Below, one piece after another: positions 13,339-35,180 of a stretch of 64,000 nucleotides of DNA. The DNA comes from Zoogloeaceae bacterium G21618-S1. Its GTDB lineage: Bacteria > Pseudomonadota > Gammaproteobacteria > Burkholderiales > Rhodocyclaceae. Positions within the stretch are counted from its first letter, which is position 1, and every line of letters begins with the position of its first letter. Where the stretch lies: the NCBI GenBank assembly GCA_027214125.1, contig JAPWHF010000002.1, positions 310,001-374,000 of the forward strand, given 5' to 3'. A program made the translations under genes and the position numbers. The notes beneath the pieces were generated by a model. It worked only from the letters and a program-made list of their open reading frames with translations. It ran no database searches and had not been told where the DNA came from.

Positions 13339-13437
13339 GCCCGGAAAACAATCGCTGCTATCGGGGAATCAGGGTAACGTACTTTTACGGCTCATCCGAA
13401 GCTAACGTCATGCGAGCGTTAAATTTTTCCACAGACA

Positions 13438-13462
13438 CCGAGCAACGCAATCCGTCGCTCGG
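13438..13462. repeat. Hairpin in the break of the EPS operon
   Basis: Two 10-base arms (13438-13447 and 13453-13462) pair with one mismatch around a 5-base loop. The hairpin lies just downstream of the amidotransferase stop on the minus strand. No uninterrupted U-tract follows, so it is at best an atypical terminator or an mRNA-end stabiliser. The whole 13339-13484 spacer holds no gene. It is the only long gap inside the minus-strand EPS block, so a promoter for the downstream glycosyltransferases may also be here, but no good -35/-10 pair was found. Confidence 0.4.
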
Positions 13463-13484
13463 AAACCACTGAAGCTCCCCGACA

Positions 13485-15389: not shown

Positions 15390-15399
15390 AGTTTGCTTC

Positions 15400-18128: not shown

Positions 18129-18136
18129 TGTTTTCG

Positions 18137-19333: not shown

Positions 19334-19335
19334 GC

Positions 19336-20373: not shown

Positions 20374-20393
20374 GACATTCCGTGATCGAGGGT

Positions 20394-21227
20394 TTACGCC
20401 GCGTCGAGGAAGACCTCGTCCATGCGTCCCCAGGAAAAATCGGACATCAACTGGCGCAGTCTGCCCTCGGTACGTGACAAATTGACATAGTGGCGAAAGC
20501 GGGTCTTCAAGGTCGTTCCCGGCACCACCGGCTGGCCAGGATCGACCTCCCAGGGATGAAAGTAAAACATCGCGGAACGCCGCTCTTCCTCATTGACCCG
20601 ACGGATCAACCAGCGCGAAGCCGAATAAGGCAAGAGCCGAAAATAGCCACCACCACCAGCCGGCAGATTGCGGCCAAGGTAGCGCACAGTGGTGATCGGC
20701 ATTTCGATCAGACCGCTCTCGAGCCGGTACGGAAAACGCGGTGCATTCGGCACGCCGTAATGATCGTGCTTGACCGGGTAGACGCTGGAGCTATAGAGAT
20801 AGCCAGCCTCGGCGATACGGTCATGCGCCCAGGGATTGCTCTCCCCGATCGAGAAACTCGGTGCGCGATAGCCTTTGACTTCGGTGCCGGCAATGTCCTC
20901 AAGCACCGATTTGGCAAGGCGAATATCCGCGCCGAAAGCCTCCGGCGTTTGATCGCTCGCCCGCTGATGGGCATAGCCATGACTGGCCACTTCGTGCCCT
21001 TCCATAGCGATCAGACGCACCAGATGCGGATAACGCTCGGCGATCCAGCCCAAGGTGAAAAAGGTGCCTTTGGCGCCGTATTCGTGCAGCAAGGAAAGGA
21101 TTAGATCCACATTGCGCTCAACACGACACGGGACGGTATCCCACTGCCTGCGCGGGAAATGCGGCGCGAGGGCCGACACCTGGAAGTAGTCTTCCACGTC
21201 GATGGTCAGCGCGTTGACGATACTCAT
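20394..21227 (-). CDS. XrtA system polysaccharide deacetylase
   Basis: A 277-residue NodB-type deacetylase with the DUF3473-like C-terminal extension found in exosortase A loci. The first metal-binding motif is LTIDVEDYFQV (residues 7-17), the second is HEVASHGYAHQ, and YRAPSFSIG follows. The C-terminal block contains FYFHPWEVDPGQP. It is predicted to N-deacetylate the amino sugar of the EPS, fitting the adjacent UDP-GlcNAc 2-epimerase. The ATG at 21227 overlaps the epimerase stop by 4 nt and gives the conserved N-terminus; longer starts enter the epimerase gene. Confidence 0.92.
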   Translation of the reverse strand: MSIVNALTIDVEDYFQVSALAPHFPRRQWDTVPCRVERNVDLILSLLHEYGAKGTFFTLGWIAERYPHLVRLIAMEGHEVASHGYAHQRASDQTPEAFGADIRLAKSVLEDIAGTEVKGYRAPSFSIGESNPWAHDRIAEAGYLYSSSVYPVKHDHYGVPNAPRFPYRLESGLIEMPITTVRYLGRNLPAGGGGYFRLLPYSASRWLIRRVNEEERRSAMFYFHPWEVDPGQPVVPGTTLKTRFRHYVNLSRTEGRLRQLMSDFSWGRMDEVFLDAA

Positions 21228-22387
21228 GCGGGCAACCCGGCCACCGCCTGCGCTTCGCGCTCGGTCAACCAAGCGGACAAATGCGCCGCAATACGCTCTG
21301 CCGCGCATCCGTCCCAACCTTCAGGAATCCGGCCGCCCTTCCCGCCACCGGCGAGAATGGCATCAACGCCATCGATGATCGCGTTTGCGTCACCTGCGAC
21401 GATGGTATTGGTACCTTCGGTGACCGTAATCGGACGTTCGGTGCTTTCCCGCATGGTCAGACACGGCACGCCGAGCGCGGTTGTTTCTTCCTGAATTCCA
21501 CCAGAGTCCGTCAAGACAAGGCGCGCGCTGGCCATCAGGCCCAGCATTTCGAGATAGCCCTGCGGCGGCAGCACGAGAAACCCGGGCGCCTCCAGCAGTG
21601 AAGCCAAACCATGCGCCTCGATGTTCTTGCGGGTTCGGGGGTGCAGCGCGAACACCAGCGGCAGCTTCTGACTGACCACATGCAGGGTTTCAATCAGGCG
21701 GCGCAACATCGCCGGATCGTCCACATTGGACGGCCGGTGCAAGGTCACCACAGCAAACCCGGCGCTGATGCGCTGCGGATCCAGCCCGGCCTGCGCCAAC
21801 AAGGCCTCGGGCGCAACGGCCTTCTTCTGATTGGCCATCAAGGTGTCGATCATGACATTACCGACGAACACGGCCCGTGCAGGATCAATCCCCTCGCGTG
21901 CCAGGTTGTCATGCGCTGAACGCTCGGTGGTGTAGAGAATGTCGGAAATCTGGTCGGTCAAGACACGGTTGACCTCTTCGGGCATGCGACGATCGCCACT
22001 GCGCAACCCGGCCTCGACATGGATCACCGGCACATGCCGCTTGGCGGCTACGAGTGCGCAGGCAAGCGTCGAATTTACATCGCCCACCACCAGCACGGCG
22101 CGCGCACCGTGGGCCTCGATCACCGGCTCGAATCGCTTCATCACCTCAGCGGTTTGCACCGCATGCGAGGCCGAGCCAACTTCCAGGTTGATGTCCGCGC
22201 GGGGCAGCTCCAGATCGGTGAACAATCGATCATTCATCGCGGCATCGTAGTGTTGACCGGTATGCACCAATAACGTCGGAATTGCCGGTGAATGCGCAGC
22301 AAAGGCGCGCATGATTGGCGCCATTTTCATGTAATTGGGGCGAGCGCCAACGATGCAGATCACGGGAGCGACAACAGACTGGGTCAT
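21224..22387 (-). CDS. wecB: UDP-N-acetylglucosamine 2-epimerase (non-hydrolysing)
   Basis: A 387-residue cytoplasmic enzyme interconverting UDP-GlcNAc and UDP-ManNAc. Motifs include GARPNYMKMAP at the N-terminus, VVGDVNSTLA, HVEAGLRSGDRRMPEE and the C-terminal LTDSGGIQEE, all typical of WecB/MnaA. It probably supplies ManNAc-type donor sugar for the EPS. The gene overlaps its neighbours on both sides by 4 nt (22384-22387 and 21224-21227), so it is translated as part of the operon. No WecC-type dehydrogenase is adjacent, so the product may be used directly as ManNAc or processed by enzymes encoded elsewhere. Confidence 0.94.
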   Translation of the reverse strand: MTQSVVAPVICIVGARPNYMKMAPIMRAFAAHSPAIPTLLVHTGQHYDAAMNDRLFTDLELPRADINLEVGSASHAVQTAEVMKRFEPVIEAHGARAVLVVGDVNSTLACALVAAKRHVPVIHVEAGLRSGDRRMPEEVNRVLTDQISDILYTTERSAHDNLAREGIDPARAVFVGNVMIDTLMANQKKAVAPEALLAQAGLDPQRISAGFAVVTLHRPSNVDDPAMLRRLIETLHVVSQKLPLVFALHPRTRKNIEAHGLASLLEAPGFLVLPPQGYLEMLGLMASARLVLTDSGGIQEETTALGVPCLTMRESTERPITVTEGTNTIVAGDANAIIDGVDAILAGGGKGGRIPEGWDGCAAERIAAHLSAWLTEREAQAVAGLPA

Positions 22388-23463
22388 TTGGCGGCTTCGT
22401 CCTTGTCATTGTGCTCAGTCGAGGCCGAGACGATCTGGCTCATCAGCGCCAGCGTAGTGGACATCGTCCGCTCCAGTTGCGCCAGACGCGCCTCGATTCG
22501 TGCGGCATCAAACCCGGCCGCCAGTTGGGCGAACTGCTGGGCGACCGCCGGATCGACGTTCAGCTTGTCCATATCAAACGAAGGCAGCGCAGCCGGTGCG
22601 GCAACGCTGGACAGCGGCGCGAGTCGCGCCGTGCCGCTGCCCCGGCCACTGCGCTGCTCTTCTTTCATTTCAGCCAGGACTTCGTCCACCTCGGACTCAC
22701 CCAGCGAGCGTTTCTCGAGCAGGAAACCCGCCAGCATCAGCCGGTCGCACAAGGTATTGATTCGGCGGGGCACGCCGCCCGATGCCCGAAAAATCGAGGG
22801 AAAAATCGCATCATCGAAATGCGGGTCGTCTTTCCAGCCGACATGCTTCAAGCGGTGCTCGACATACGCCCGGGTTTCTTCCATGTCCAGCGGACCGAGA
22901 TGGTAGGACGCAATCACCCGCTGGCGAAGCTGCTGCATCTCCGGACTCTGCATGATGTCGCGAAATTCCGGCTGCCCCACCAGAAAGCTCTGAAGCAGCG
23001 CATGCTCTTCGAGCTGAAAATTGGACAGCATGCGAAGCTCTTCGACCGCACGCGGCGTCAGGTTCTGCGCCTCATCAACAATCAACAGTGCCCGCTTGCC
23101 AGCCGCCGTCACTGACACAAGGAAAGTCTCGATCGCGAGCAGCAAGCCAGCCTTGTCGAGGCCCTTGCTTGGCACCCCAAAAGCGGCCGCCACCAATTGC
23201 AGAATGTCGTTCGCGTCGATTTGCGTGCTGACCAACTGCGCCGCCACCACTTTGTTCGAATCGAGCTTTTGCAGCAGGCTGCGCACCAAGGTGGTCTTGC
23301 CAGCACCGATCTCGCCGGTGATAACGATAAAGCCTTCGTTCTGATGCAGACCATATTCCAGATAGGCCATGGCGCGGCGGTGGCCGCGGCTGCCGTAAAA
23401 GAAGGCGGGGTCAGGATTGAGCTGAAACGGTTTCCCGCTCAGCCGGTAGAAATTCTCATACAT
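22384..23463 (-). CDS. XrtA-associated secretion ATPase (AAA/ExeA-like)
   Basis: A 359-residue cytoplasmic ATPase of the ExeA/GspA-like group found in PEP-CTERM loci. The N-terminal FYRLSGKPFQLNPDP is diagnostic; the Walker A loop is GEIGAGKTTLV (50-60), the Walker B LLIVDEAQNL lies near residue 130, and a C-terminal helical lid follows. The last roughly 80 residues are predicted to be coiled and of low complexity. It is thought to energise or regulate export at the inner membrane, and it lies 3 nt after the outer-membrane beta-barrel gene. Its stop overlaps the wecB ATG. Confidence 0.92.
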   Translation of the reverse strand: MYENFYRLSGKPFQLNPDPAFFYGSRGHRRAMAYLEYGLHQNEGFIVITGEIGAGKTTLVRSLLQKLDSNKVVAAQLVSTQIDANDILQLVAAAFGVPSKGLDKAGLLLAIETFLVSVTAAGKRALLIVDEAQNLTPRAVEELRMLSNFQLEEHALLQSFLVGQPEFRDIMQSPEMQQLRQRVIASYHLGPLDMEETRAYVEHRLKHVGWKDDPHFDDAIFPSIFRASGGVPRRINTLCDRLMLAGFLLEKRSLGESEVDEVLAEMKEEQRSGRGSGTARLAPLSSVAAPAALPSFDMDKLNVDPAVAQQFAQLAAGFDAARIEARLAQLERTMSTTLALMSQIVSASTEHNDKDEAAK

Positions 23464-23466
23464 GAT

Positions 23467-24978
23467 TTAGAACCGTACGCCCAGCGTCGCTGTCAGCGCG
23501 TTTTCGGTGTAAGAAGTACTACCGTCAGACTTCTGATGACGATAGATCAGCCCCCCGGTCGATTTTGGACCGAGTTTGCTGGACACACCAAGGTTGAATG
23601 TCGTTCGCTTGCTGTCTTGCGTGGTCGCTTGCACGTTGTTGCGCCCCACCGACGCAGTAAGCGTCGAAAACGCCGACAACTTGTGATTCAGTGACACGAT
23701 CACGCCGCTGTCGCGAATCTGGTCGTTGTTGAAGAAATCATCCGTCGACGAAACAACGAGGTTCTGGGCGACCCGGCTGCGCTCGGTGCGGAAAACCGAG
23801 AACGTCAGCGAATTGCGCACGCCCGACAAGGTGAAATCCCCCCGAAGATTGCGGCTGACATACTGCGCATTGGTGATAAAGCCCAACTGCAAACCGGAAC
23901 CCGTAATACCCGACTGAGCCAACAGCGCACGAGTCGCCGCATCACGCTGGACCGGATTCGGGAACTGAGTCGCCAGGCTGTCGTAAATCAGGCGGTAGTA
24001 GTAGTCCTCAAGCGACTCCGACACCAATTCTTCAGCCGAAGTGTAGTCGCGCACATAGCTCAATCGCCAACTACTGCGGGGACCACGATGCGACACTTTG
24101 ACATCGTATCCGCGTCCGAACAGCCGCTTCTCTGTAAAGGCCGTAACCGAGGTCCGGGTGGTCGGGTACCAGTCAAAGCCAACGCCGTGCGTGCTGCCCT
24201 CTTCGGTACGGCCGGCATTGTAGTTGTTTGACTCGCGGCCGACCGACGCGCGGAGAATGAACTGAGGCGTAACGGTATAGCTCAAACCCACCCGGCCGTT
24301 CTGACGAGACGCTTCGGTATCCCCTTCGCTATAGTGCGTATCGACCTTGTCGTAGGACGCCGACCAGCCGAGCGGACCAAACGCTTCGCCATCCTGCAGT
24401 GCTCCTGAAAAGGTATCGGTTCGACGGTTGCTCACCGTACCGCTACCACCGCTGAGCCAATGGCTTTTATAGCCCAATCGCCCTTTGGCGGAATTTCCGA
24501 ATGCGAATTCGAGACGTGGCCCCAGATTGAAGGAACGCACCTCGTTGTCCTCGCTGGTATTCAAGGGGTCGTCGCCGGAACGCCCGCTGAAGAGCGACTG
24601 GTTTGTCCGGCTGACAGAAGCACCGACGTCGACAAACAGCAACTGCTCGATAGCTTCGATCTCTCCCCGGCCACGCAAGGCCAGAAAGGTCGAGTTGCGA
24701 TCATCTGAGTTGGCGTAGAGCACGTTACGCAAGGACGCATCCAGATTGCCGTTGATCCGGCCGGAGGCCCGCCGCACGCTGATGGCCGGCGACACCTCGA
24801 ACAGGAAATCACTCTTCCCGTCGGCCGACGCGTCGACATTGTCAGTGAACGTCGCCCGCGTGTTCACACTCGGCGTGATTTGTACCACCGACTGCGCCCA
24901 CGCGCCCCCCGCCAGCGTACACGCCAGCAGCGTAACGATTCGTTTCGCCACGCAGCGACAATCAGGCTGCTTTGTCAT
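23467..24978 (-). CDS. PEP-CTERM system-associated outer membrane beta-barrel protein
   Basis: From the ATG at 24978 the product has 503 residues with a Sec signal peptide (about residues 1-28, cleavage after AWA). Alternating hydrophobic/polar strands rich in Gly, Tyr, Arg and Asn run through the rest, ending in ATLGVRF with a terminal Phe, as expected for a BAM substrate. It matches the outer-membrane proteins found between the autokinase and ATPase genes in exosortase A loci, and is proposed to be the EPS export barrel or its partner. Two further in-frame ATGs at 24996 and 25008 exist. All overlap the end of the upstream kinase gene, and none has a strong Shine-Dalgarno, so the exact start is uncertain. 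Confidence 0.85.
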   Translation of the reverse strand: MTKQPDCRCVAKRIVTLLACTLAGGAWAQSVVQITPSVNTRATFTDNVDASADGKSDFLFEVSPAISVRRASGRINGNLDASLRNVLYANSDDRNSTFLALRGRGEIEAIEQLLFVDVGASVSRTNQSLFSGRSGDDPLNTSEDNEVRSFNLGPRLEFAFGNSAKGRLGYKSHWLSGGSGTVSNRRTDTFSGALQDGEAFGPLGWSASYDKVDTHYSEGDTEASRQNGRVGLSYTVTPQFILRASVGRESNNYNAGRTEEGSTHGVGFDWYPTTRTSVTAFTEKRLFGRGYDVKVSHRGPRSSWRLSYVRDYTSAEELVSESLEDYYYRLIYDSLATQFPNPVQRDAATRALLAQSGITGSGLQLGFITNAQYVSRNLRGDFTLSGVRNSLTFSVFRTERSRVAQNLVVSSTDDFFNNDQIRDSGVIVSLNHKLSAFSTLTASVGRNNVQATTQDSKRTTFNLGVSSKLGPKSTGGLIYRHQKSDGSTSYTENALTATLGVRF

Positions 24979-25891
24979 CTTCCGGTTCTTGCCCATATCC
25001 GTAGCCATATCCGTAATAGCCCCCCGGCCCTTGGACGGTCGATTTATTCAACAGCATCATTTTGATCGGACACGCCTCAATCGTCGCCAAGGCCTGTTTC
25101 AGCGCTGCATGCGTCGTACGCTCAGCCTCGACAACCACCACGATCTGCCCCATGTGCGTCGCCAGCACGCGCGACTCGGTGGTCACCAGCAAAGGCGGCG
25201 AATCAAAAACGATGATCCGGTCGGGATAACGGCTGGCCATCTCGTCCAGCAAACGATTCATCCCTTCGCTGGCAAGCAGTTCAGTGGCCCGCTGCGTGGC
25301 CGTGCCCGCCGGCAGAATGCGAAGCTTCTCGATGTTGGTCCGCAGAATGACGTCCGGCAGATCAAGCGTGCCATCCACCAGCACATCCATCAAGCCGCGC
25401 TCTGGCGGCAATCCCATCTGCTTGAGAATCGAGGGTTTCGAGACATCCGCATCCACCAACAACACCGAGTGATCGAGTTCCATCGCCATACTCATGGCCA
25501 GGTTCAACGCGGTAAAACTCTTGCCCTCGCCCGGCAACGCGCTGGTCACCATGATGAGGTTCCCCTGTGCCACACGACTGGTGCCTCGCATTGAGGACGC
25601 ATTGCGGAGCAAAGGACGCTTGATCACCCGATATTCTTCTGAGATCGATGTGCGCTGCTGATCCGGCGTTACAAAACCCATGTGGGCAAGCCGCTCGAGA
25701 TCAATATGCACAGCCCGACTGACCGGCTCCGCCTCCGGGGCATGAATTTCCACCCGCGAGCGCTCTATCGGTGCAACCGCATCAACAACTGCAGCTTGTG
25801 CGGGAGCGGGAGCCGGTGTAATCACTGGCGCATCTTGCCCTGCTTGCTTCAACTGCCCGAGCCGTTCGACGGCTTTTTCAATAAGACTCAT
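24962..25891 (-). CDS. XrtA-associated tyrosine autokinase (BY-kinase, CpsD/Wzc C-domain-like)
   Basis: A 309-residue cytoplasmic bacterial tyrosine kinase. The Walker A motif is SALPGEGKS (117-125), Walker A' is LLVDADVSKP near 143-152, and Walker B is IIVFDSPPLLVT. The C-terminal tail carries five tyrosines at 292, 293, 295, 297 and 299, the usual autophosphorylation cluster. It works with the separate membrane chain-length determinant encoded 10 nt upstream to control polymer length and export. The first 100 residues are a Pro/Ala-rich linker starting with SLIEKAVERL, conserved in this subgroup. Its end overlaps the start of the outer-membrane protein gene. Confidence 0.94.
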   Translation of the reverse strand: MSLIEKAVERLGQLKQAGQDAPVITPAPAPAQAAVVDAVAPIERSRVEIHAPEAEPVSRAVHIDLERLAHMGFVTPDQQRTSISEEYRVIKRPLLRNASSMRGTSRVAQGNLIMVTSALPGEGKSFTALNLAMSMAMELDHSVLLVDADVSKPSILKQMGLPPERGLMDVLVDGTLDLPDVILRTNIEKLRILPAGTATQRATELLASEGMNRLLDEMASRYPDRIIVFDSPPLLVTTESRVLATHMGQIVVVVEAERTTHAALKQALATIEACPIKMMLLNKSTVQGPGGYYGYGYGYGQEPEDDKAA

Positions 25892-25901
25892 GTCACGACC
25901 T

Positions 25902-27443
25902 TCACGAAAGTTTCAGCATGGCGATTGCCGCCGTCAGCACGCCAAACGCACCGACATAGCCCCCAACACCGCCCAAAAAGGCCAGATTGAGGCGCTGCCG
26001 CCGCCGCTTGCGCACCGGATCGGCCGTCGCGCTGACCGTGCCGAGCAAAGGCAATCCGGTGACTTCGCGCAAATTCCGCCCATCCAGGAATGTCGGCCGC
26101 ATCTGACTGAGGATGAACGTGAATGCCAGGCCAAACAGCAGCGCGGCGCCCCCACCCAGTGGCATCAACAGAATGCGGTTGGGCGCAGACGGCTTGAGCG
26201 GTACGCTCGGCGGATCGATCAGGCGGAACTCCGCCATACCCGACGACGACTCCATCTCCACTGACATGTTGGCCGACTCGCGGCGACTCACCAGCGTTTC
26301 ATAGTTTTTCTTGTTGATCTCGTAATCCCGGTTCAACTGGGCCAATTCAGCCTCAATCTGCGGTAGCAGCTTGGCTGATTCCTGCAAGCGCGCCTGGCGG
26401 CCTTCAAACTCGGCCACCCGCGCTCTGAGCGACGCGACATTGGCGGCAGCATCGGCCAGCGCGAGCTTCATTTGCTGATAGACCGGGTTGGAGTTCACGT
26501 CCCCATAACCGCCACCTTCGTTGCGGCGAGCAGCCACTTCCACCTTTTTCTGCTCTTTCAGTTGCTCAATGATCCGGCGAGTCCCCACCACGTCCGGATG
26601 TGCCTCGGTGTACCGCTGGAGCAAACCGTCCAGATTCTTCTCCAACGCATCAATACGACCATCTATCTCGGGAATCGACACCTTGCGCTCGACGGTGTTT
26701 TCCGGCAGAAGGACCGGCTCCTCGCCAGTGAGCTGGCGCTGCAGCGCATCTCGAGAATTCTCGGCTTCTCGCAACGCAAGACGCGCCGCCGCCAACTGGC
26801 CAGCAACCTCCCCCACCTGGGTGAGGTAATCCTTGCCGCTGCCCATCAAATGCATGTTCTTGATCTTGAAATCCTTGAGCCGGTTTTCAGCTTCGTCCAA
26901 CCGTTGCTCATAGGTCTTGATCTGTTCCTCGATGAATCGGCGGGCCGAATCCGTGTCCTTGCGCTTGTCCCCGAGGCCCGATTCCACAAATATCGAGACC
27001 AGGGACTGAACAACACGCTTGGCGCGCTCGGGCTGCGTATCTTCATACGACAGCGTGAAGAGGTTGTCCCGCCCGGTGCCCTTGATTTGAAGTGTCTTGT
27101 TCAGCTCGACGATCAATTCTTCGCGCTGCTTGTTGGTCTTGACCGTCAAGTCGAGATCCGCCATCCGGATCAGCTTCTCGATGTTTGGGCGACTGATCAA
27201 GGTCCGCGAGAGAATGGTGATCTGCTGATCCACGTTCGGCTGAACCGCCAAGCCCGACATCAGGGGCTTCAGCACCGACTGCGTATCAACGAAGATCCGT
27301 GCCGAGGATTCATAGCGATCAGGCAGCATATAGATGGCACCGGCGGCAATGGCGCCGACCAGCCAGGCCGCAGCCAGACCCCACCAGCGATATAGCCACA
27401 TGGCGCGCAGATACGCGACGAGTTGTCGAAGGACGTCTTCCAT
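25902..27443 (-). CDS. XrtA system polysaccharide chain length determinant (Wzz/PCP family)
   Basis: A 513-residue inner-membrane polysaccharide co-polymerase. One transmembrane helix lies near residues 15-35 and another near 425-445, with a final hydrophobic segment at the C-terminus. The periplasmic part contains the Wzz domain (LPDRYESSARIFVDT) and long coiled coils from about 160 to 375 with the GNVR-type region (YEINKKNYETLVSRRESA). In this family the tyrosine kinase is a separate protein, encoded next. It sets EPS chain length and contacts the outer-membrane export protein encoded 65 nt upstream. Confidence 0.93.
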   Translation of the reverse strand: MEDVLRQLVAYLRAMWLYRWWGLAAAWLVGAIAAGAIYMLPDRYESSARIFVDTQSVLKPLMSGLAVQPNVDQQITILSRTLISRPNIEKLIRMADLDLTVKTNKQREELIVELNKTLQIKGTGRDNLFTLSYEDTQPERAKRVVQSLVSIFVESGLGDKRKDTDSARRFIEEQIKTYEQRLDEAENRLKDFKIKNMHLMGSGKDYLTQVGEVAGQLAAARLALREAENSRDALQRQLTGEEPVLLPENTVERKVSIPEIDGRIDALEKNLDGLLQRYTEAHPDVVGTRRIIEQLKEQKKVEVAARRNEGGGYGDVNSNPVYQQMKLALADAAANVASLRARVAEFEGRQARLQESAKLLPQIEAELAQLNRDYEINKKNYETLVSRRESANMSVEMESSSGMAEFRLIDPPSVPLKPSAPNRILLMPLGGGAALLFGLAFTFILSQMRPTFLDGRNLREVTGLPLLGTVSATADPVRKRRRQRLNLAFLGGVGGYVGAFGVLTAAIAMLKLS

Positions 27444-27508: not shown

Positions 27509-28129
27509 TCAGAACCAGCTTTGCGGAATGATCAGAACATCGCCGGGACGCATCTCGACATTGGCCGAGACATCACCGCGCTTGAGCAAATCCGACAAGC
27601 GGACGCTGTACTGCTTGTTTCCCTCGCCAGTGCGCAGGATCGACGCCTTGTTGCCATCAGCAAACTCGGTCATGCCGCCCACTGCAATCATCACGTCCAG
27701 TGCGGTCATTTTCTGACGATACGGCAAAACCATCGGCTTGGCGGCTTCGCCAACCACGCGAATCTGCTCGCTATACGGGCCGACAAAACTGGTCACGATG
27801 ACCGTCACGACCGGCTCGCGGATGTACTTCTCCAGCGCCTTCTCGATATCCCGCCCGAGCGTGCTGGCATCTTTTCCCATCGCCTGCAGGTCTTCAACCA
27901 GCGGCGTGGTGATTTTTCCGTCCGGACGCACCGGGACGGACATCGACAATTCCGGATTGCGCCACACCACGATATTGACCGTATCACCCGGTCCGATCAC
28001 ATAGCTGTATTCCGAATCAGCCGCCACAGCGGGCGCTGGCGGAAAACTGTTGCTGGCACACCCCGACAGCATTACAAGCGAAGCGAGAGCAACACTGACC
28101 AGCCCCAGCACGGTTCGCATGAGCTTCAT
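27509..28129 (-). CDS. XrtA system exopolysaccharide export lipoprotein (Wza-like)
   Basis: A 206-residue polysaccharide export (PES) protein. The signal peptide ends in a lipobox LSGC with the lipidated Cys at 24, so it is an outer-membrane lipoprotein. The Poly_export domain (about 38-120) begins YVIGPGDTVNIVVWRNPELS, and one SLBB-type soluble ligand-binding domain follows (about 125-205). It is shorter than Wza (about 380 residues), as usual for the exosortase-associated form that pairs with a separate beta-barrel. GGAGG lies about 8 bases upstream of the ATG. It is the first gene of the minus-strand operon, so the promoter must lie in 28130-28375. Confidence 0.93.
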   Translation of the reverse strand: MKLMRTVLGLVSVALASLVMLSGCASNSFPPAPAVAADSEYSYVIGPGDTVNIVVWRNPELSMSVPVRPDGKITTPLVEDLQAMGKDASTLGRDIEKALEKYIREPVVTVIVTSFVGPYSEQIRVVGEAAKPMVLPYRQKMTALDVMIAVGGMTEFADGNKASILRTGEGNKQYSVRLSDLLKRGDVSANVEMRPGDVLIIPQSWF

Positions 28130-28375
28130 TTCCTACCCCTCCAATGTCATTGTGTCGGCAGTGGCTTCCGACATTCCATCGGAATCCTAGCGACGCCGGG
28201 CACGGTCCAAAAGGAACAATTACACAAACGCTTACAGCCTTCCCCCGCAAGAATGACTAAAGTACGATGCAATACACGCAGTGCAGCGCAGTCCATTGGC
28301 ATTATTTGACCGAGCGCACTGCGACCTGGCATGACACATTCCGCTGCAACTGATCGGTCATCAGAGGGTCACCAA
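28130..28375. promoter_or_regulatory. Divergent control region between the EPS operon and the FeeM-like gene
   Basis: This 246-nt spacer should contain promoters for both the minus-strand EPS operon and the plus-strand acyltransferase. The untranslated leader of the EPS mRNA contains two potential hairpins: arms 28153-28158/28168-28173 and arms 28173-28177/28181-28185. They share one base and so may be alternatives. No RfaH ops element and no convincing sigma-54 -24/-12 pair was found by eye. Confidence 0.45.
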
Positions 28376-29185
28376 GTGAGTACATTCGAAGCAAGTCAGT
28401 CCAACAACCCGAGGTTGCAAGGAGCTTATCACGCTATTCCTCGAAGAGACGTGACAAACGATTCAGGCGCTCTCCATTCGCTTGGCATCCCCTCAACCGA
28501 CGATCGGGACAGCCGCGAGTTCGTCCTGTCGCGCAGTGATTTTCAGATCAGGCTGGGCAATGGCGCCGATGGGCAACGCAGTAATGTCAGCATGCTGATT
28601 CAGCGAATGTACGCATGGCGCGGCCTGCTCACGCATGCCCCATCGCGCATTGACGATCAGCCAAATCAATTGACGCTGATCGCCTCGCGCGGCACCACCA
28701 TGTTTGGCACCCTGACCTTGAAGCTCGATTCCGACGAAGGCCTGCTCGCAGATGAGTTGTACTCAAAAGAAATCAGCGCCGCGCGACAGGACGGCGCCAA
28801 GGTGTGCGAGCTGACGCGACTCGCCATTGACCCAGCCTTCAACTCAAAAGAAGTCCTCGCCTCGATTTTTCATCTGGCCTACCTTTTCGGCCGTTTGATC
28901 CACAACAAGACTGACTTGTTCATCGAGGTCAATCCTCGGCACGTAGCGTTCTATCGACGCATGCTCGGCTTCCGGATCGCCGGAGAAGAGCGCATCTGCC
29001 CCCGCGTCAACGCGCCGGCGGTACTCCTGCACCTTCCGCTCAGCTACGTCGATGAACAAGTCGGGCGCTGCGCCGGACGCCCCGACACCGGCGCCCGAAG
29101 CCTCTACTCCTATTTTTTCAACGAGAACGAGCAACGCGGCCTGCTCAAGCGCTTGCAGGCCGATCCTTCGCTGGTTGCCCTTTAG
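28376..29185 (+). CDS. FeeM-type N-acyl amino acid synthase-like acyltransferase
   Basis: The protein has a GNAT/autoinducer-synthase-like fold. Recognisable parts are a core with IASRGTTMFGTLTLKLDS, the conserved VCELTRLAID strand, a helix with FHLAYLFGRLIHNKTDLFIEVNPRH, and FYRRMLGFR at the acyl-CoA/ACP-binding end. FeeM-type enzymes join long-chain fatty acyl groups from acyl carrier protein to an amino acid such as tyrosine, and relatives are known to occur beside exosortase/PEP-CTERM loci. The chosen GTG at 28376 has GAGGG seven bases upstream, giving 269 residues; an ATG at 28331 would add 15 residues but lacks a ribosome-binding site. It is divergent from the EPS operon. Substrate identity is inferred, not shown. 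Confidence 0.8.
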   Translation: MSTFEASQSNNPRLQGAYHAIPRRDVTNDSGALHSLGIPSTDDRDSREFVLSRSDFQIRLGNGADGQRSNVSMLIQRMYAWRGLLTHAPSRIDDQPNQLTLIASRGTTMFGTLTLKLDSDEGLLADELYSKEISAARQDGAKVCELTRLAIDPAFNSKEVLASIFHLAYLFGRLIHNKTDLFIEVNPRHVAFYRRMLGFRIAGEERICPRVNAPAVLLHLPLSYVDEQVGRCAGRPDTGARSLYSYFFNENEQRGLLKRLQADPSLVAL

Positions 29186-29191
29186 CACAAC

Positions 29192-30490
29192 TCAGAACGC
29201 CCGCCGCACCTCGACATACGCACGGTCACTGCGGTCGAATCGACCGAATACCCCCAGCTCCGGACCACCAAACACGTCGAGTCCCGCCGTACCGCGCCAG
29301 TTGGCATCCATCTGCCACACGACTTTTGGTCGCAGCATATAGCCGCCACCATTCAGACTCGACACGAGCAGCACCTCAGCCTCCAAATCGTCACCAAACT
29401 GACGATTCACCAGAAGCGTCGCGCCCTCCTCGCTCTTGTCCCATACCAAACCTTCGCGATGGTTCAAATAACGTCGCGCGTAGTATTGGGTGTTCACACG
29501 CCACACCTGCCCGATCGGCACATCCACCCCGACAACATAATCCAGCGTATCGGATGCCACCAGGCCATTCGGCGCCGTAAAGTCGGTCGTATTGAACTGG
29601 CGCCCGGCGGTGTGAACAGCCTCACCCTTGAGCACGAAACGCCCCATATCCTTGGAAAACGTAGCACCGATCTGATTGATACGGTCGTGGCGCGCTTCGA
29701 AAGTCAACGGTGCGACCGACGTCCGATAAAACGTCGGCGCGGTATCCGTGCTCCGATAAAAAAAGCCAGAGACATCCCAACCACTGATCAATGCCGACAA
29801 ACGAGTACCCCAGTTCATGTTGCCTAGCCGCTGATCAGGTCGATCTTCGCCCTCGAAACGGGCACCATCAGCGGCAAACGGGTAAAACTCGCCACCCGGC
29901 TTTCCGATGTTGTCGACACTGGCGACCGGTATCCACAGCAACTCACCATGCCAGCCATCACCGAAGTACTCGGCGCGCGCAGCCCACTGCGGAATCCGCA
30001 TCTGATCGAATTCGGGCAGAAAAAACTCGCGGGTATCACGCGCAGACACGACGTCGGCAAAGAACAGACCGACCATCTCACCCCAAACAATATGCTGCCG
30101 CCCTAGCCGATAGTCCCAGTTGCCCGCTGATATATCGAGATACGCCTCTCGAATCGTCGCTTCGCTGCGCCGATCCCGACGCACATCAGACGAATAGACA
30201 TCCGACTCGATATCCGGTGCAGCATCCGCATCAAATCGCCCGGAGAGCTTCCACTTCACCTTCTCGCTCAAGCGACCACTGCTCTCAAGGTTCAAGCGCC
30301 CACGCAACTTGGACCAATACGACGGCGAGTTGTACGCCCGAGCGGCCGAGAACTCGGCAAACCCGTGCAAACCGACACCGCTGTCAGCCGGCTTGGCCAC
30401 ATCCAGCAAATCATCCAGATCGCCCGCAGCAAGCACACAGCCAGTCATCGCCACCAGGCCAAGGCCAACCCCCAAACGCCATCGATTCAT
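29192..30490 (-). CDS. Outer membrane beta-barrel protein (DUF1302-like) of an ABC/LolA-type cluster
   Basis: A 432-residue protein with a Sec signal peptide (residues 1-23, cleavage near VLA-AGD). The barrel is rich in Arg/Asp/Tyr/Trp, with repeated WRVNTQYYARRYL-type strands and a C-terminal Phe (VEVRRAF). Segments such as YRLGRQHIVWGE and ADVVSARDTREF are typical of the DUF1302/alginate-export-like families. The start at 30490 was chosen because GGGAG lies 6 nt upstream; an ATG at 30496 immediately follows it. It lies 10 nt after the ABC ATPase gene and probably works with it. It ends 6 nt from the convergent FeeM-like gene. Cargo unknown. Confidence 0.72.
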   Translation of the reverse strand: MNRWRLGVGLGLVAMTGCVLAAGDLDDLLDVAKPADSGVGLHGFAEFSAARAYNSPSYWSKLRGRLNLESSGRLSEKVKWKLSGRFDADAAPDIESDVYSSDVRRDRRSEATIREAYLDISAGNWDYRLGRQHIVWGEMVGLFFADVVSARDTREFFLPEFDQMRIPQWAARAEYFGDGWHGELLWIPVASVDNIGKPGGEFYPFAADGARFEGEDRPDQRLGNMNWGTRLSALISGWDVSGFFYRSTDTAPTFYRTSVAPLTFEARHDRINQIGATFSKDMGRFVLKGEAVHTAGRQFNTTDFTAPNGLVASDTLDYVVGVDVPIGQVWRVNTQYYARRYLNHREGLVWDKSEEGATLLVNRQFGDDLEAEVLLVSSLNGGGYMLRPKVVWQMDANWRGTAGLDVFGGPELGVFGRFDRSDRAYVEVRRAF

Positions 30491-30500
30491 CAACATCTCC

Positions 30501-31250
30501 CTAGATTTCCGGATCTTCTTCATCTTGCGCCCGGCGGTCCTGGACAAACATCCATCCATCGGACTGTCGCATCCCCAGCGCCTTGATTTCACCATCTTCA
30601 ATACGAACCAAGCGGTCCGCCATGTTCATCACGCGTCGATCGTGGGTCGAAAACACGAACGTGGTTCCAGACTCCCTGTTGATCTGCTTCATCAACTTCA
30701 GAATGCTCTCGCCCGTTTTTCGATCCAGGTTCGCGGTCGGCTCGTCGGCCAAGACAATCTTCGAATGCGTCGCCAACGCCCGCGCAATGGCCACGCGCTG
30801 TCGCTGCCCACCAGAGAGCTGGTTCGGCCGATGAGGCGCATACTTGCGCAAGCCCACCATGGACAGGTAATGCTTTACCCGCTCCTGCCGCTCAGCCTTG
30901 GAGAGTTCGGGAAACTGCAGCAGCGGGTATTCCACATTCTCTTCCGCCGACAGCACGGGCATCAAATTGAAGGTCTGGAAAATGAAACCGATCGTGCGCG
31001 CACGCAGATCCGCCAGATCATCGGGGCTCTTGCCGGACACATCCTGACCATTGATCAGCACCCGACCACTCGAAGGGGTGTCGATGCAACCGATAATATT
31101 CAGTACTGTCGACTTGCCGCTTCCAGACGGCCCGGCGATGGCCAGAAAAACGCCAGGCTCAATGGACAAGGTCACGTCGCGAAGCGCCGTCACCGTTTGA
31201 TCGCCCAAGCGATAACGCTTGGAGACATTTTCGACCTGAACTATCGCCAT
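30501..31250 (-). CDS. ABC transporter ATP-binding protein (LolD/MacB type)
   Basis: A 249-residue ATPase with all catalytic motifs: Walker A GPSGSGKST (40-48), Q-loop FIFQTFNLMP, signature LSGGQRQRVA, Walker B IVLADEPTANLD and switch His in FSTHD. This is the o228/LolD-MacB subclass, which works with FtsX-type permeases in mechanotransmission and lipoprotein or lipid extraction. The ATG at 31250 gives the canonical beginning MAIVQVENVSKRY; extension to 31292 would nearly touch the divergent gene. No permease gene lies next to it, which is unusual. The outer-membrane protein gene follows after 10 nt. Confidence 0.93.
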   Translation of the reverse strand: MAIVQVENVSKRYRLGDQTVTALRDVTLSIEPGVFLAIAGPSGSGKSTVLNIIGCIDTPSSGRVLINGQDVSGKSPDDLADLRARTIGFIFQTFNLMPVLSAEENVEYPLLQFPELSKAERQERVKHYLSMVGLRKYAPHRPNQLSGGQRQRVAIARALATHSKIVLADEPTANLDRKTGESILKLMKQINRESGTTFVFSTHDRRVMNMADRLVRIEDGEIKALGMRQSDGWMFVQDRRAQDEEDPEI

Positions 31251-31294: not shown

Positions 31295-32065
31295 ATGACA
31301 CAGCCATTTCGACTTCGTCGCACGGTCCTGCGCATCGCCGTTTTATCGGCGCTCTTGCCCCTCAGTGGATTGACGCCGGCCGCCGATACGCCCGATGCCA
31401 GCGCGCTGCTCGCCAGCACCGACGCCATCCGCTTTCCACAGGAAAGCTTCCAGGTCGACATTGACATCGAAAGCCGACAAAACGAAGGCGAGCCGGCCGA
31501 CCATCACCGCTACCGCGTACTCTCAAAAGGGCGCGAAGATACGGTCGTCCTGACGATGGAACCGTCCAGCGAGCGCGGACAGATCCTGCTCATGAAACAT
31601 CGGGATTTGTGGATTTTCATGCCGTCCGTCTCCCAGCCCGTCCGCCTGTCCCTGGCGCAACGCCTCACCGGCCAGGTCGCCAACGGCGATCTCGCGCGCG
31701 CCAACTTTACCGGGGACTACACCGCAAAATACTTGAGAGAAGAAGCCATCGACGGGAAACCAGCCCACGTGCTGGAACTGACCGCCGTGGACGAGGGAGT
31801 AACCTACGCCAAAGTTGAGTACTGGATTGACACCGCCACGACACGCCCGATCAAAGCCGCGTTCTACGCCATTTCCGGCCGATTGCTGAAAACTTGTGAG
31901 TACATGGACTACAAGGAAATGGCCGGCGCTGTTCGCCCCACTCGCCTCGTCATGACCGACGCGCTCAAGGCGGGCAACGTATCCACCATGAGTTACAGCG
32001 CCATGAACCCACGCCCGCTACCGGACAAGCTGTTCACCAAGGAGTATTTGAAGAAACTGAACTGA
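31295..32065 (+). CDS. LolA-like outer membrane lipoprotein-sorting protein
   Basis: A 256-residue periplasmic protein with a signal peptide (about 1-30, cleavage near TPAADT). Its beta-rich fold resembles the LolA/LolB-like outer membrane lipoprotein-sorting protein family: EDTVVLTMEPSSERGQILL, WIFMPSVSQPVRLS, and KVEYWIDTATTRPIKAAFY near the end. Such proteins are thought to bind lipid or lipoprotein for passage across the periplasm. It is divergent from the ABC ATPase, with 44 nt between the chosen starts. An AAGGATAG Shine-Dalgarno lies 6 nt before the ATG. Together with the ATPase and barrel gene it suggests an envelope lipid or lipoprotein trafficking set. Confidence 0.85.
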   Translation: MTQPFRLRRTVLRIAVLSALLPLSGLTPAADTPDASALLASTDAIRFPQESFQVDIDIESRQNEGEPADHHRYRVLSKGREDTVVLTMEPSSERGQILLMKHRDLWIFMPSVSQPVRLSLAQRLTGQVANGDLARANFTGDYTAKYLREEAIDGKPAHVLELTAVDEGVTYAKVEYWIDTATTRPIKAAFYAISGRLLKTCEYMDYKEMAGAVRPTRLVMTDALKAGNVSTMSYSAMNPRPLPDKLFTKEYLKKLN

Positions 32066-32156: not shown

Positions 32157-33179
32157 TTAGAAAGCGTGACGGATGCCAAGGCCCAGAGCGTTGGAGCTCT
32201 TGCCATCTTGCTTGGCCAGCGCGCCCAGACCGACGTTGTCGTCGTTCGTGGTGCGGTTCACACCGACGTAAGCGATGGTGCGCTTCGACAGGTTGTGGGT
32301 GTAGGCCACGGTGAACGAACGGCTGTCCGAATCCTGCGCATCTTCGTTGCGGGCACCGTAAGCAACGTGGATGTTGCCCATGCCGACCGGAACGATACCG
32401 CCGATCTGATACACCTTCACGTCGCTGTCATTCGCATCGACGCTAGCGGTCTGGTAGGAACCGACCAGCTTGAAGCCGCCGAAGTCGTAAGCAGCACCGA
32501 GGTAGTGCTCTTTGTGGTCGTCGCCAAGGGTCGAATCGCCAGCGTTGATGTAGATGTAATCAACGTTCAGCGGGCCGTTGGCGTAGTTCAGGCCCAGACC
32601 GACTTTGTCATCGGTGTTGCGGTTCGGGTTCTTTGCCTTGTCGTCAGCTTCGGTCGAACCGAAGCTATAGATCACCTGGCCGCTGAAACCACCGAATTTC
32701 TTCGACTGGTAGTTGACCGAGTTGTCCCAGCGAGCGTCCGAACCGGCGTCGACCTGAAGACCACCGCCCGTCAGAATGGCTGCGGGATCCAGGGCACCAG
32801 CGGCGACGGCGTCATTGCGGAAAGCATAGTAACCCGGCGAGTACTGACGACCCAGACCGATGAAACCGAAGCCGCCTTCCAGACCAACCCAAGCTTGACG
32901 GTGGAATTCTTTGGAGGAAGCCGGGGAAGCGTCGTCGGAGTTGAAGCCCTGCTCCAGCACGAACTTGGCCTTCAGGCCGTTACCCAGGTCTTCTTCGCCC
33001 TTGAAGCCGATGCGCGGGCCGTTCAGCACGCCGTTAGCAACGCCCGAGAACTTGGCGTCACCAGCTTTACCAACACCAACGAAGGTGTCGATGATGCCGT
33101 AAACGGTAACGTTGGACTGAGCGAAGGCCGGAGCGGCGATCATGCCGGCGATGGCCAGGGCGATCAGTTTCTTCTGCAT
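32157..33179 (-). CDS. Gram-negative trimeric porin (Burkholderia/Neisseria type)
   Basis: A 340-residue general porin with a clean signal peptide (MQKKLIALAIAGMIAAPAFA, residues 1-20), then SNVTVYGIIDTFVG, the classic first strand of betaproteobacterial porins. Sixteen amphipathic strands follow, with a PGYYAFRNDAV-like loop region, ending in LGIRHAF with the terminal Phe needed for BAM recognition. AGGAG lies 6 nt before the ATG (CTTAGGAGAAATCC), giving strong translation. Codon use looks highly biased, as expected for an abundant protein. It is monocistronic, with a bidirectional terminator just downstream and its own leader of about 200 nt. Confidence 0.95.
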   Translation of the reverse strand: MQKKLIALAIAGMIAAPAFAQSNVTVYGIIDTFVGVGKAGDAKFSGVANGVLNGPRIGFKGEEDLGNGLKAKFVLEQGFNSDDASPASSKEFHRQAWVGLEGGFGFIGLGRQYSPGYYAFRNDAVAAGALDPAAILTGGGLQVDAGSDARWDNSVNYQSKKFGGFSGQVIYSFGSTEADDKAKNPNRNTDDKVGLGLNYANGPLNVDYIYINAGDSTLGDDHKEHYLGAAYDFGGFKLVGSYQTASVDANDSDVKVYQIGGIVPVGMGNIHVAYGARNEDAQDSDSRSFTVAYTHNLSKRTIAYVGVNRTTNDDNVGLGALAKQDGKSSNALGLGIRHAF

Positions 33180-33378
33180 GGATTTCTCCTAAGATTGTGT
33201 AGTTGAATCCCGGGGGTGGCCCGGGCCCGACTGACCTCTCAAGCCGAGAAGTTGTGGCAATTTTGCAAACCTTCGCGTCTTGCCGCAAGCACCCTGACTA
33301 AATACCGCCCGATCTCAGCGATGTTTGTTGCTTTTGCGCAACATCACCACACAATCCATGTTTCGGCACCCCTTGCGC
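33180..33378 (-). promoter_or_regulatory. Porin leader and promoter region
   Basis: This 199-nt spacer between tamA and the porin holds the porin promoter. A weak pair, TTGCGG (-35) and CAAAAT (-10) with 17-nt spacing, can be read on the minus strand around 33257-33286. An 11-nt palindrome (33279-33289) covers that -35, and a separate 6-bp hairpin lies at 33326-33343. No regulator can be named. Confidence 0.3.
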
Positions 33379-35115
33379 TCAGAACGCCACGGCAATCGCA
33401 AAATGCAGACGCACCGTCCGGTCGTCATGCCCATAGGCCAGATCGACGGCCAGCGGCCCCGCCGGGCTGCGCCAGCGTGCGCCAAGGCCATAGCCGGTCT
33501 TGAAGCGAAACGTCGGTCGCTCATCGGTCGCATTGCCCGCATCCACAAAGCCCGCGATACCCCACGCGTTGTCCAGCCAATGGACGTATTCGGCGCTCAC
33601 CGCTGCCATATAGCGCCCACCCACCGTGGCACTCCCCTCGGCCACACCCAGGCTTTGATAGGCATAGCCCCGCACACTCTGGGCTCCGCCGGTACGAAAC
33701 AGGAAGTCCTGCGGAATACCTTCGCGACTTGGCGCCAGCGTCATGCCACCATCGGCCCGCAGGATGAACACGTCCCGCTCACCCACCGGTTGATAGCGCA
33801 CAAGCCTGCCCGCCAGGCGGAGAAAATTCTGGTCAGACAAGGCGGCCTTGGCACCGCCGCCGATCTGTCCACTCACGACAAAACCTTCGCGCGGATCGAG
33901 CAGGTTGTCGACTTTGCGCCAGGTCCATGTCCAGTTGAGTGACAGCGCCTTGCGGTTCGACTCCTCAACGCCTTCGGGCGCATAGGTTTCACGCTGGAGC
34001 TTGAGCGCGAGATGGGTTTCGATGTCGTCGCGCTGGTGTTTGCGCGCAATGCCGATGGCGCTGTTGGTGATTTTCAGGCCCTGGGTATCGCTACGCTCTG
34101 ACAAGGCGCCGAAGCTGTCCTGGCGCCCGCCCCGCTCGGGCGGGAGAAACACATCGGCGTAGGCCAGCTGGTGACGTTGTTGCAGGCGTACACCCGTGGT
34201 CAGAATCCATCCCCGGCCGAGGAGGTTCGCATTGCGATAGGACGCCTCCGTACGGTAACCATTGTTACTACTGAAGCCGACACCCAAGCCAACCCGTTTG
34301 GGCGGCGCCTCGACAACACCGACATGGATCGGCACCTGATCGGGCGCTACATCTCGCGTGGCGACATTGACGACTACCGACGAGAAATAGGCGGTTGACT
34401 GCAGCACGCGCTGAAATTCGAGCAGGCGATCCAGATCATAGGGGTCGCCCGGCTCGATCAGGTTGTAGCGAGACACCAGATCGGCGGGATAGTCCTGAAG
34501 CCCCTCGATATTGAGCTGCCCCATGGTAAAGGCCGGGCCCGAATCGATCGTCACCGCCAGTCGTACCCGCGCCGTCTCTGGATCCACCTCGGCGCGCGTC
34601 TTCACCAGACGGGCGGCGGCAAAGTCGCGATACGCGACCGCATCCAGCAAATGCCCTTTGGCGCCATCCCAGTCCGCCTGCCGAAACGCGGCCCCGACCG
34701 GCAACTGCCACGATTGTTTGAGTTGATCTCGTCGATCGGCATGACGTGGATCAGCAAGCGTTCCCGAAAAAATGATATCCACCGCCGCGATTTCAGCGCG
34801 CGCTCCAAGCGTCACCTTAACTTCCATCGGCGAGCGGCCGTCGCCCACACGCGATACGGTCGGGGTGAAATAGCCCTCGGTGGCCAGCAAGGCGTCAATC
34901 TCTTTGCGGGTACGGCGAATCAGCGCTTGCCGCTCGCGGTCATCAGCAGCATCCGGCAAGGCATCTTCGCGCAGCGTGCTCAAATGGGTCATTAACAGGT
35001 CACGGACGGCCTCCGGCGCATCCAGCGCAATGGGCGCGGCAGCGTAGCTGGCGGTGGCGAAACACCCGCAAAGCCCAACCACCCAGCGACACGCGGATCG
35101 AAAAATTGTGTTCAT
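33379..35115 (-). CDS. tamA: Autotransporter assembly complex protein TamA (Omp85 family)
   Basis: A 578-residue outer-membrane Omp85 protein. The signal peptide spans about residues 1-26 (cleavage after SYA). Three POTRA-like domains follow to about residue 260, for example EIDALLATEGYFTPTVS, then the surface-antigen barrel, with the conserved LFRTGGAQSVRGYAYQSLG lid-loop motif and a C-terminal strand LHFAIAVAF. Size matches TamA (about 570-600) rather than BamA (about 770-800). The ATG at 35115 gives a proper signal peptide, whereas the open frame extends to 35160. TamA normally works with TamB, but no tamB gene follows here: the next gene is the porin. Confidence 0.9.
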   Translation of the reverse strand: MNTIFRSACRWVVGLCGCFATASYAAAPIALDAPEAVRDLLMTHLSTLREDALPDAADDRERQALIRRTRKEIDALLATEGYFTPTVSRVGDGRSPMEVKVTLGARAEIAAVDIIFSGTLADPRHADRRDQLKQSWQLPVGAAFRQADWDGAKGHLLDAVAYRDFAAARLVKTRAEVDPETARVRLAVTIDSGPAFTMGQLNIEGLQDYPADLVSRYNLIEPGDPYDLDRLLEFQRVLQSTAYFSSVVVNVATRDVAPDQVPIHVGVVEAPPKRVGLGVGFSSNNGYRTEASYRNANLLGRGWILTTGVRLQQRHQLAYADVFLPPERGGRQDSFGALSERSDTQGLKITNSAIGIARKHQRDDIETHLALKLQRETYAPEGVEESNRKALSLNWTWTWRKVDNLLDPREGFVVSGQIGGGAKAALSDQNFLRLAGRLVRYQPVGERDVFILRADGGMTLAPSREGIPQDFLFRTGGAQSVRGYAYQSLGVAEGSATVGGRYMAAVSAEYVHWLDNAWGIAGFVDAGNATDERPTFRFKTGYGLGARWRSPAGPLAVDLAYGHDDRTVRLHFAIAVAF

Positions 35116-35158
35116 GGCGCCATTGTAGAGCGTCGCCTCAATTGCAACGGACTGACGC

Positions 35159-35180
35159 AAAAAAGCGGCCCGAAGGCCGC
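35159..35180 (-). terminator. Rho-independent terminator of the livK-type gene
   Basis: On the minus strand a 6-bp GC stem (35165-35170 with 35175-35180) with a TTCG tetraloop is followed by six T residues (35159-35164). It lies 25 nt after the stop of the binding-protein gene. Confidence 0.85.

Follow-up and report, generated by a model that had tools for sequence, protein, structure and literature searches.

A FeeM-type N-acyl amino acid synthase gene between an exosortase A operon and Lol-like transport genes: a possible lipid export line in Zoogloeaceae bacterium G21618-S1

In the 64,000-nucleotide stretch of contig JAPWHF010000002.1 of Zoogloeaceae bacterium G21618-S1 that was analyzed here (positions 310,001 to 374,000, hereafter referred to as the window), a predicted N-acyl amino acid synthase (NAS) gene is located between biofilm polymer genes and a set of little-noticed lipid transport genes, an arrangement which suggests that the lipid made there is transported to the surface of the cell in the course of biofilm building. 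Two questions meet at this locus, namely, the role of NAS in the PEP-CTERM/exosortase system and the nature of the moiety which anchors exosortase-processed proteins. The link between NAS and PEP-CTERM/exosortase systems, which the first-pass annotation of this DNA had presented as reported, is indeed in print (Craig, Cherry and Brady 2011, as cited in the available portions of PMC7293339 and PMC4897644). While this association is known, the wider conserved gene set around the synthase seems to be undescribed. In the open-license PMC literature, no paper among the matches listed links a Lol-like transporter to NAS or to an exosortase, combines an exosortase with LolA, or mentions PEP-CTERM together with LolD, LolA, outer membrane lipoprotein sorting, or DUF1302, and none was found there for exosortase with lipoprotein-releasing. 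The source genome (4.39 Mb, 66 contigs) has Denitromonas species as the closest named relatives found (87 to 95% protein identity), and both questions become accessible to knockout and lipidomics experiments in this culturable genus. The features discussed below are collected in Table 1.

Table 1. Features of the window around the synthase gene, with the evidence for each assignment
Feature	Coordinates	Strand	Basis
Remainder of XrtA operon	12133-27443	-	NCBIfam and Pfam
Glycosyltransferase	12133-13338	-	NCBIfam/Pfam
Amidotransferase	13485-15389	-	NCBIfam/Pfam
Glycosyltransferase	15400-16593	-	NCBIfam/Pfam
Exosortase A	16590-18182	-	TIGR03109, 333 bits
Glycosyltransferase	18137-19402	-	NCBIfam/Pfam
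GNAT/FemAB-like	19336-20373	-	NCBIfam/Pfam
Deacetylase	20394-21317	-	NCBIfam/Pfam
WecB-like	21224-22387	-	NCBIfam/Pfam
ATPase of XrtA operon	22384-23463	-	NCBIfam/Pfam
Outer membrane protein	23467-25008	-	NCBIfam/Pfam
Tyrosine kinase	24962-25891	-	NCBIfam/Pfam
Chain length determinant	25902-27443	-	NCBIfam/Pfam
XrtA/PEP-CTERM system exopolysaccharide (EPS) export protein, EPS operon head	27509-28129	-	TIGR03027, 240 bits (cut-off, 180)
Divergent intergenic region, 246 nt	28130-28375		Gene coordinates
Conserved element AAGGAACAATTACACAAA	28211-28228	+	81 nt from export gene start
Predicted FeeM-type NAS, 269 aa	28376-29185	+	PF21926, 183 bits; FeeM 2g0b alignment; invariant Glu145
DUF1302 protein, probable signal peptide, convergent with NAS	29192-30490	-	PF06980, 46 bits; start inferred from alignment
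LolD-like ABC ATPase, no adjoining permease	30501-31250	-	ABC_tran, 120 bits
LolA-like periplasmic carrier, divergent from ATPase	31295-32065	+	PF17131 (LolA_like), 165.5 bits

The synthase gene and the predicted class of its product

The NAS open reading frame extends from a GTG codon at 28376, which is preceded at a distance of 7 bases by AGAGGG, to a stop codon ending at 29185; an in-frame ATG is also present upstream, at 28331, and the exact start is ambiguous. When residues 17 to 269 were compared with those of two related loci, L006 and L007, 28/16/104 and 31/13/107 differences, respectively, were found at codon positions 1/2/3, residues 1 to 16 being excluded from this judgment as too few. 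The concentration of the substitutions at third codon positions indicates a real and constrained gene, one which encodes a protein and is subject to selection.

The product is almost certainly a FeeM-type NAS. FeeM (PF21926) represented its sole Pfam match at an E value of 0.001 (183.3 bits compared to a cut-off of 27; residues 71 to 220), and at the same E value neither TIGR03694 nor the AHL autoinducer synthase model Autoind_synth (PF00765) produced a match. In a search of solved structures with a profile of 23 relatives, FeeM (2g0b) was retrieved with an E value of 1.5e-19, the next match being at 0.52. An AlphaFold2 model likewise placed FeeM 2g0b first (8.7e-11), ahead of an ordinary GNAT as the best other entry (1.6e-5); this model was built from 7 close sequences and has a mean pLDDT of 61.6, with residues 1 to 71 below 50 and thus unreliable. 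The predicted catalytic residue, Glu145, lies within the motif CELTRLAID, is invariant across the 23 aligned rows, and aligns with the glutamate in LAEVVQFAMD, the corresponding motif of FeeM (residue 96 as we count the deposited chain). According to the available portion of PMC4897644, the active-site glutamate is Glu95 in FeeM and Glu103 in Nas354, and its replacement by alanine in a metagenomic relative abolished the phenotype. The first-pass assignment of the gene to the FeeM-like synthases, rather than to the ordinary acetyltransferases, is thereby sustained by the Pfam score, the structural comparisons, and the aligned glutamate. The gene very probably makes fatty-acid-capped amino acids, from an acyl donor and an amino acid whose use by the enzyme we infer.

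The protein resembles FeeM and the environmental-DNA-derived synthases NasY, NasR, and Nas354 in its Pfam family, catalytic glutamate, and FeeM fold, although it is longer than FeeM (269 aa compared to a chain of 198 aa) and differs from all of these by its place in a defined XrtA/Lol-like locus. Its genomic context is similar to that of the TIGR03694 acyltransferases (PEP-CTERM/exosortase system-associated), whose model it does not match. Further FeeM family proteins are encoded in the source genome. A long one, of 431 aa, is located on contig C33, and contig C63 encodes a TIGR03694 protein; TIGR03694 matches were found on C63 and C8, that on C63 being over the cut-off and the C8 protein having a marginal PF21926 match (28.8 bits). 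A tree was built from 62 FeeM-type sequences after removal of duplicates (the single sequence shared by L005 and L043, and L007, which repeats L044). Of its 24 EPS-linked rows, 21 fell together in a group of 27 with loose support, the bootstrap remaining unsettled.

Longer forms of FeeM-type NAS are exemplified by L061:8427-9707 (+) and L101:9226-10518 (+). The former carries a C-terminal PilZ domain (26 bits), as does Nas354 in the portion of PMC4897644 available; among four long NAS proteins scanned, PilZ reached Pfam significance in that of L061 and not in the C33 copy, L118, or L120. The C33 copy, at 58% identity, has no Pfam PilZ match at an E value of 0.01. A further variant, L153:12191-13432 (+) of genome G240, located beside the transport module, is a NAS fused to a cyclic-nucleotide-binding domain (cNMP_binding, 83 bits; FeeM, 79 bits), which suggests second-messenger control of lipid synthesis.

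The divergent exosortase A operon and the intergenic control region

The synthase gene had been described in the first-pass annotation as divergent from the head of the EPS operon across a 246-nt gap, and this is the arrangement found, with a TIGR03027 export gene at the operon head and the exosortase A operon behind it (Table 1). The operon also contains a PaaK-like AMP-dependent ligase gene (window positions 9669 to 11111, - strand) which adjoins a putative O-glycosylation ligase. Of the 66 loci examined, 26 carry the divergent NAS/export pair, and 24 of these are distinct, L043 and L044 representing the same contigs as L005 and L007, respectively.

It had further been proposed that the two transcription units share control. 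In its full form, this proposal would have the 246-nt region unite NAS and the EPS operon in one regulon, with the lipid working together with the polymer and the genes downstream of the synthase being incidental, a reading that we regard as quite improbable. Retention of the divergent arrangement in 24 distinct loci argues for it, as does the distribution of a conserved element within the region (Table 1), whose motif, AAGGAAYAATTACACAAA, was matched at 14 or more of 18 positions in 22 of the 26 NAS-divergent locus rows (including two duplicates) compared to only one (L113) of 13 export gene upstream regions without a divergent NAS. The upstream region of L112, which also lacks a divergent NAS, has 12 of 18 matches at the same place, a value within chance. 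The motif was read off close relatives, so that their full scores are circular and the distant rows constitute the test; shuffled upstream regions scored about 11 on average, with occasional values of 14 to 16, and the window contains one occurrence with at most 3 mismatches where 0.01 was expected. Against the single-regulon reading, the element keeps its distance to the export gene, 80 to 100 nt from its start across the rows (starts being extrapolated where the alignment was partial), and is retained in L113 in the absence of a divergent NAS.

Furthermore, no promoter pair was recognized in the divergent region of the window, where a consensus scan detected no sigma-70 pair. PEP-CTERM genes of the PrsR/sigma-54 regulon are preceded by a -24 GG/-12 GC site and a TTTACA-type upstream motif (PMC1569441, in the portion available); neither was detected in the window region by consensus, as distinct from the published 17-nt logo, and scattered matches to 8 to 10 of 12 positions were present in 8 of the 26 other rows. 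The element appears to belong to the EPS promoter, and, since it is scarce where NAS is absent, it may have a role shared by NAS and the EPS genes. The notion of shared control is favored by the distribution of the element and weakened by its placement. A terminator-like site at 28231 to 28251 (- strand) was rejected as being within chance (1 found, 0.4 expected).

Lol-like genes on the other flank and their distribution

The LolA/ABC/DUF1302 flank, which was absent from the first-pass annotation, is more informative as to function than the control region. The ATPase scored 223.5 bits against the LolD model TIGR02211, below the cut-off of 307.75, and the DUF1302 protein is probably an outer membrane barrel, its AlphaFold2 model (mean pLDDT of 38) being too poor for use. 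Genes for a porin and a TamA-like Omp85 protein (32157 to 35160, - strand) flank the LolA-like gene, an order which recurs in Denitromonas and in L112/L113.

The distribution of these genes was assessed in 150 genomes of the same family, using an E value of ≤1e-90 for the ATPase and a threshold of our own (>70 bits) for a strong FeeM-type match. The ATPase was found in 55 of the 150 genomes, at 56 places, whereas XrtA and TIGR03694 exceeded their cut-offs in 65 and 54 genomes, respectively, and strong FeeM-type matches occurred in 49; XrtA was present in 51 of the 55 ATPase genomes. A NAS gene lies within 2.5 kb of 37 of the 56 ATPase places and within 10 kb of 39, compared to a rough chance figure of 0.25% per place, which assumes two NAS genes in 4 Mb. 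Two of the 56 places belong to genome G051, in which the ATPase and TIGR03694 occur twice on contig C53 (7286 to 9688 and 36803 to 39205) as mirror images with identical scores, reflecting either an inverted duplication or an assembly artifact. The synthases within 10 kb were exclusively strong FeeM-type at 15 places, exclusively TIGR03694 at 18, and of several kinds at 2; at the remaining 4, the match was only a weak FeeM-type one, three of these being shown to be of the long kind and the fourth being judged so by its open reading frame length. No NAS was present within 10 kb of the other 17 places, in part perhaps owing to contig ends. Adjacency combined with differing synthases thus places the same transport genes beside different kinds of NAS in different lineages. 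The fact that a strong FeeM-type NAS lies within 10 kb of only 17 of the 56 places, the synthase being elsewhere absent nearby or of another kind, also speaks against the single-regulon reading discussed above.

Matches to the permease described below (the first of the C63 pair being the query) were present in 71 of the 150 genomes at an E value of 1e-40 and in 53 at 337 bits or more, our own threshold for a strong place, with 51 of these 53 being among the 55 ATPase genomes. Within the XrtA genomes, the genome-level tie between ATPase and NAS was weak (Fisher P of 0.017 for all NAS and 0.23 for strong matches only, kinship being ignored), and the argument, therefore, rests on adjacency and on the exchange of NAS kinds.

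These data bear on the alternative of a NAS product which acts as a diffusible signal or as a surfactant and leaves the cell unaided, the Lol-like genes being present in the XrtA/EPS locus for other reasons, such as the handling of ordinary lipoproteins, and NAS being just one of a number of genes gathered there. We consider this possible, though on the unlikely side. Consistent with it, 10 of the 65 XrtA genomes possess NAS without the ATPase, 35 regions around other FeeM-type homologues contained neither the EPS operon nor LolA/DUF1302, and planctomycete N-acyl tyrosines alter the biofilms of other bacteria (PMC7293339, in the portion available). The recurrence of the same ATPase, LolA, and DUF1302 genes beside three kinds of NAS, including TIGR03694 proteins only distantly similar to the window NAS, argues against it.

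The survey was extended to 321 genomes of the class, with eight candidates scored per genome and an ATPase threshold of 1e-85. Aside from the source genome, 13 class genomes from seven families carry the ATPase, and in the corresponding 13 stretches the permease pair (13/13), a LolA-like gene (13/13), and DUF1302 (12/13) accompany it, with an XrtA-type export gene in 5. Permeases, ATPase, and carrier thus lie within 20 kb in 13 genomes of other families. All 13 genomes have a FeeM family match. In 7 of them (L142, L143, L145, L147, L148, L149, and L153), a NAS is located no more than 10 kb from the ATPase; among the other 6, NAS is 27 to 31 kb away in G396, while the remaining five have it on other contigs, the module being on contigs of <15 kb in two of these.

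In genome G005 (L103:8838-11299, - strand), two open reading frames downstream of DUF1302 had been taken, by position, for permeases and proved to encode a glycosyltransferase and a sugar epimerase; an epimerase of this type also adjoins the ATPase in G118, and a family search with one of the two open reading frames gave matches in 5 of 150 genomes. Such neighbors hint at a glycosylated cargo in the genus of G005.

The permease pair, tailoring genes, and a proposed export line

Because the window ATPase has no adjoining permease, the source genome was searched for FtsX proteins, and a tandem MacB_PCD/FtsX permease pair was located on C63, and hence on a different contig from the ATPase, directly upstream of the TIGR03694 NAS gene and on the same strand. 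A chance neighborhood would not readily produce this order, which adds to the case against a product that leaves the cell unaided. The two permeases scored 97.6 and 112 bits against the LolC/E model TIGR02212 (cut-off, 362.45), whereas a canonical LolC/E permease, followed by another ABC ATPase, is encoded on C7 (483 bits, over the cut-off); the pair is, therefore, considered a Lol-like paralogue, separate from the housekeeping Lol system.

On C63, the genes that diverge from the permease pair encode a ThiF-like adenylating enzyme, a nitroreductase, and a PEP-CTERM protein. A search of 99 rows detected ThiF in 22 further loci, which comprise 10 of the 13 class loci, 7 of the 20 family ATPase loci, 1 of the 35 control loci, and L060, L061, L077, and L084, and the nitroreductase gene in 14 (one weak), the control loci being regions around unlinked NAS homologues. 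The NCBIfam model PRK14852 (NF011425; 989 positions) unites NAS (85 to 225), ThiF (313 to 593), and nitroreductase (615 to 755) in one chain, while in the source genome these are separate genes at two loci, far below the whole-protein cut-off. PEP-CTERM open reading frames were detected in 18 of the 33 ATPase-fetched loci (10/20 family, 8/13 class) compared to 2 of 35 control loci; they also occur in 4 of 5 hand-added loci (L060, L061, L084, L087, and L100), which are counted apart as these were chosen after PEP-CTERM matches had been seen there. The layout of the window, with NAS, module, and export gene side by side, is shared by 16 loci (the L043 and L044 contigs being included once each); none of these had a match to ThiF or a PEP-CTERM open reading frame, so both go with the permease side, i.e., with the other locus of the source genome.

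Taken together, this conserved gene set combines a synthase with a complete Lol-like transporter and with enzymes which may tailor the product, and a PEP-CTERM protein is often part of it. We propose, with about even confidence, that the NAS product feeds a dedicated Lol-like export line which accompanies the exosortase A/EPS system and leads toward the outer membrane. NAS would make an N-acyl amino acid in the cytoplasm, the carboxyl end of which may first be activated and altered by the ThiF-like enzyme and the nitroreductase. The LolD-like ATPase would then power the MacB/FtsX permease pair, apparently one operon with the second NAS (TIGR03694), to lift the lipid, or a molecule bearing it, out of the inner membrane, after which the LolA-like protein would carry the cargo across the periplasm and the DUF1302 protein would deliver it at the outer membrane. 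The line would likely serve to provide a surface lipid which anchors or conditions the XrtA-made matrix, composed of polymer and of PEP-CTERM proteins. Of these steps, that of NAS is nearly established, and the joint action of the ATPase with the permeases, LolA, and DUF1302 is well supported by conservation, whereas the transport role of the line and the origin of its cargo from NAS are inferred.

The proposed line resembles LolCDE-LolA lipoprotein sorting in its LolD-like ATPase, its two LolC/E-like permeases, and its LolA-like carrier, although the ATPase and permeases fall below the curated Lol cut-offs. LolB acts at the outer membrane end of the classical Lol pathway, a position taken in the proposed line by DUF1302. 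If correct, the proposal would amount to a second Lol-type route in Gram-negative bacteria. A role in the matrix fits the genetics of Methylomonas LW13, in which disruption of an exosortase-linked NAS led to loss of the polysaccharide band and of gradient growth, while planktonic growth was retained (PMC11072679, in the portion available).

The cargo may instead be an exosortase product, i.e., PEP-CTERM proteins cut by XrtA and joined to the NAS-derived lipid, as opposed to the free lipid; we regard this as unlikely. The enrichment of PEP-CTERM open reading frames at ATPase loci and the co-occurrence with XrtA noted above would both be expected from it, although the lack of such open reading frames in all 16 window-layout loci and the occurrence of NAS without the line are at odds with it. 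A plain N-acyl amino acid, moreover, has no free amine to resolve the exosortase intermediate, for which N-acyl-lysine or -ornithine or a further modification is needed. Elaborated accordingly, NAS, the ThiF-like enzyme, and the nitroreductase would build an aminolipid, XrtA would join it to the cut C terminus of PEP-CTERM proteins, and the ATPase, permeases, LolA-like protein, and DUF1302 would transfer the resulting lipid-tailed proteins to the outer surface. The NAS lipid would then be the missing acceptor of the exosortase reaction and the line a second Lol pathway, serving proteins lipidated at the C terminus, a scheme which we hold to be distinctly doubtful and yet worth testing because exosortases may leave a new moiety of unknown nature on their products, the anchoring moiety being still unknown in the literature (PMC11980579, in the portion available).

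At L061 (20 kb, genome G075), the genes for DUF1302, TIGR03694, both permeases, ThiF, nitroreductase, a PEP-CTERM protein, a long NAS, and a FeeM-type NAS are consecutive and followed by the EPS operon, the ATPase being cut at the edge of the stretch. With three kinds of NAS, the permeases, ThiF, nitroreductase, PEP-CTERM gene, and XrtA operon in continuity, this locus represents a good one for experimental work.
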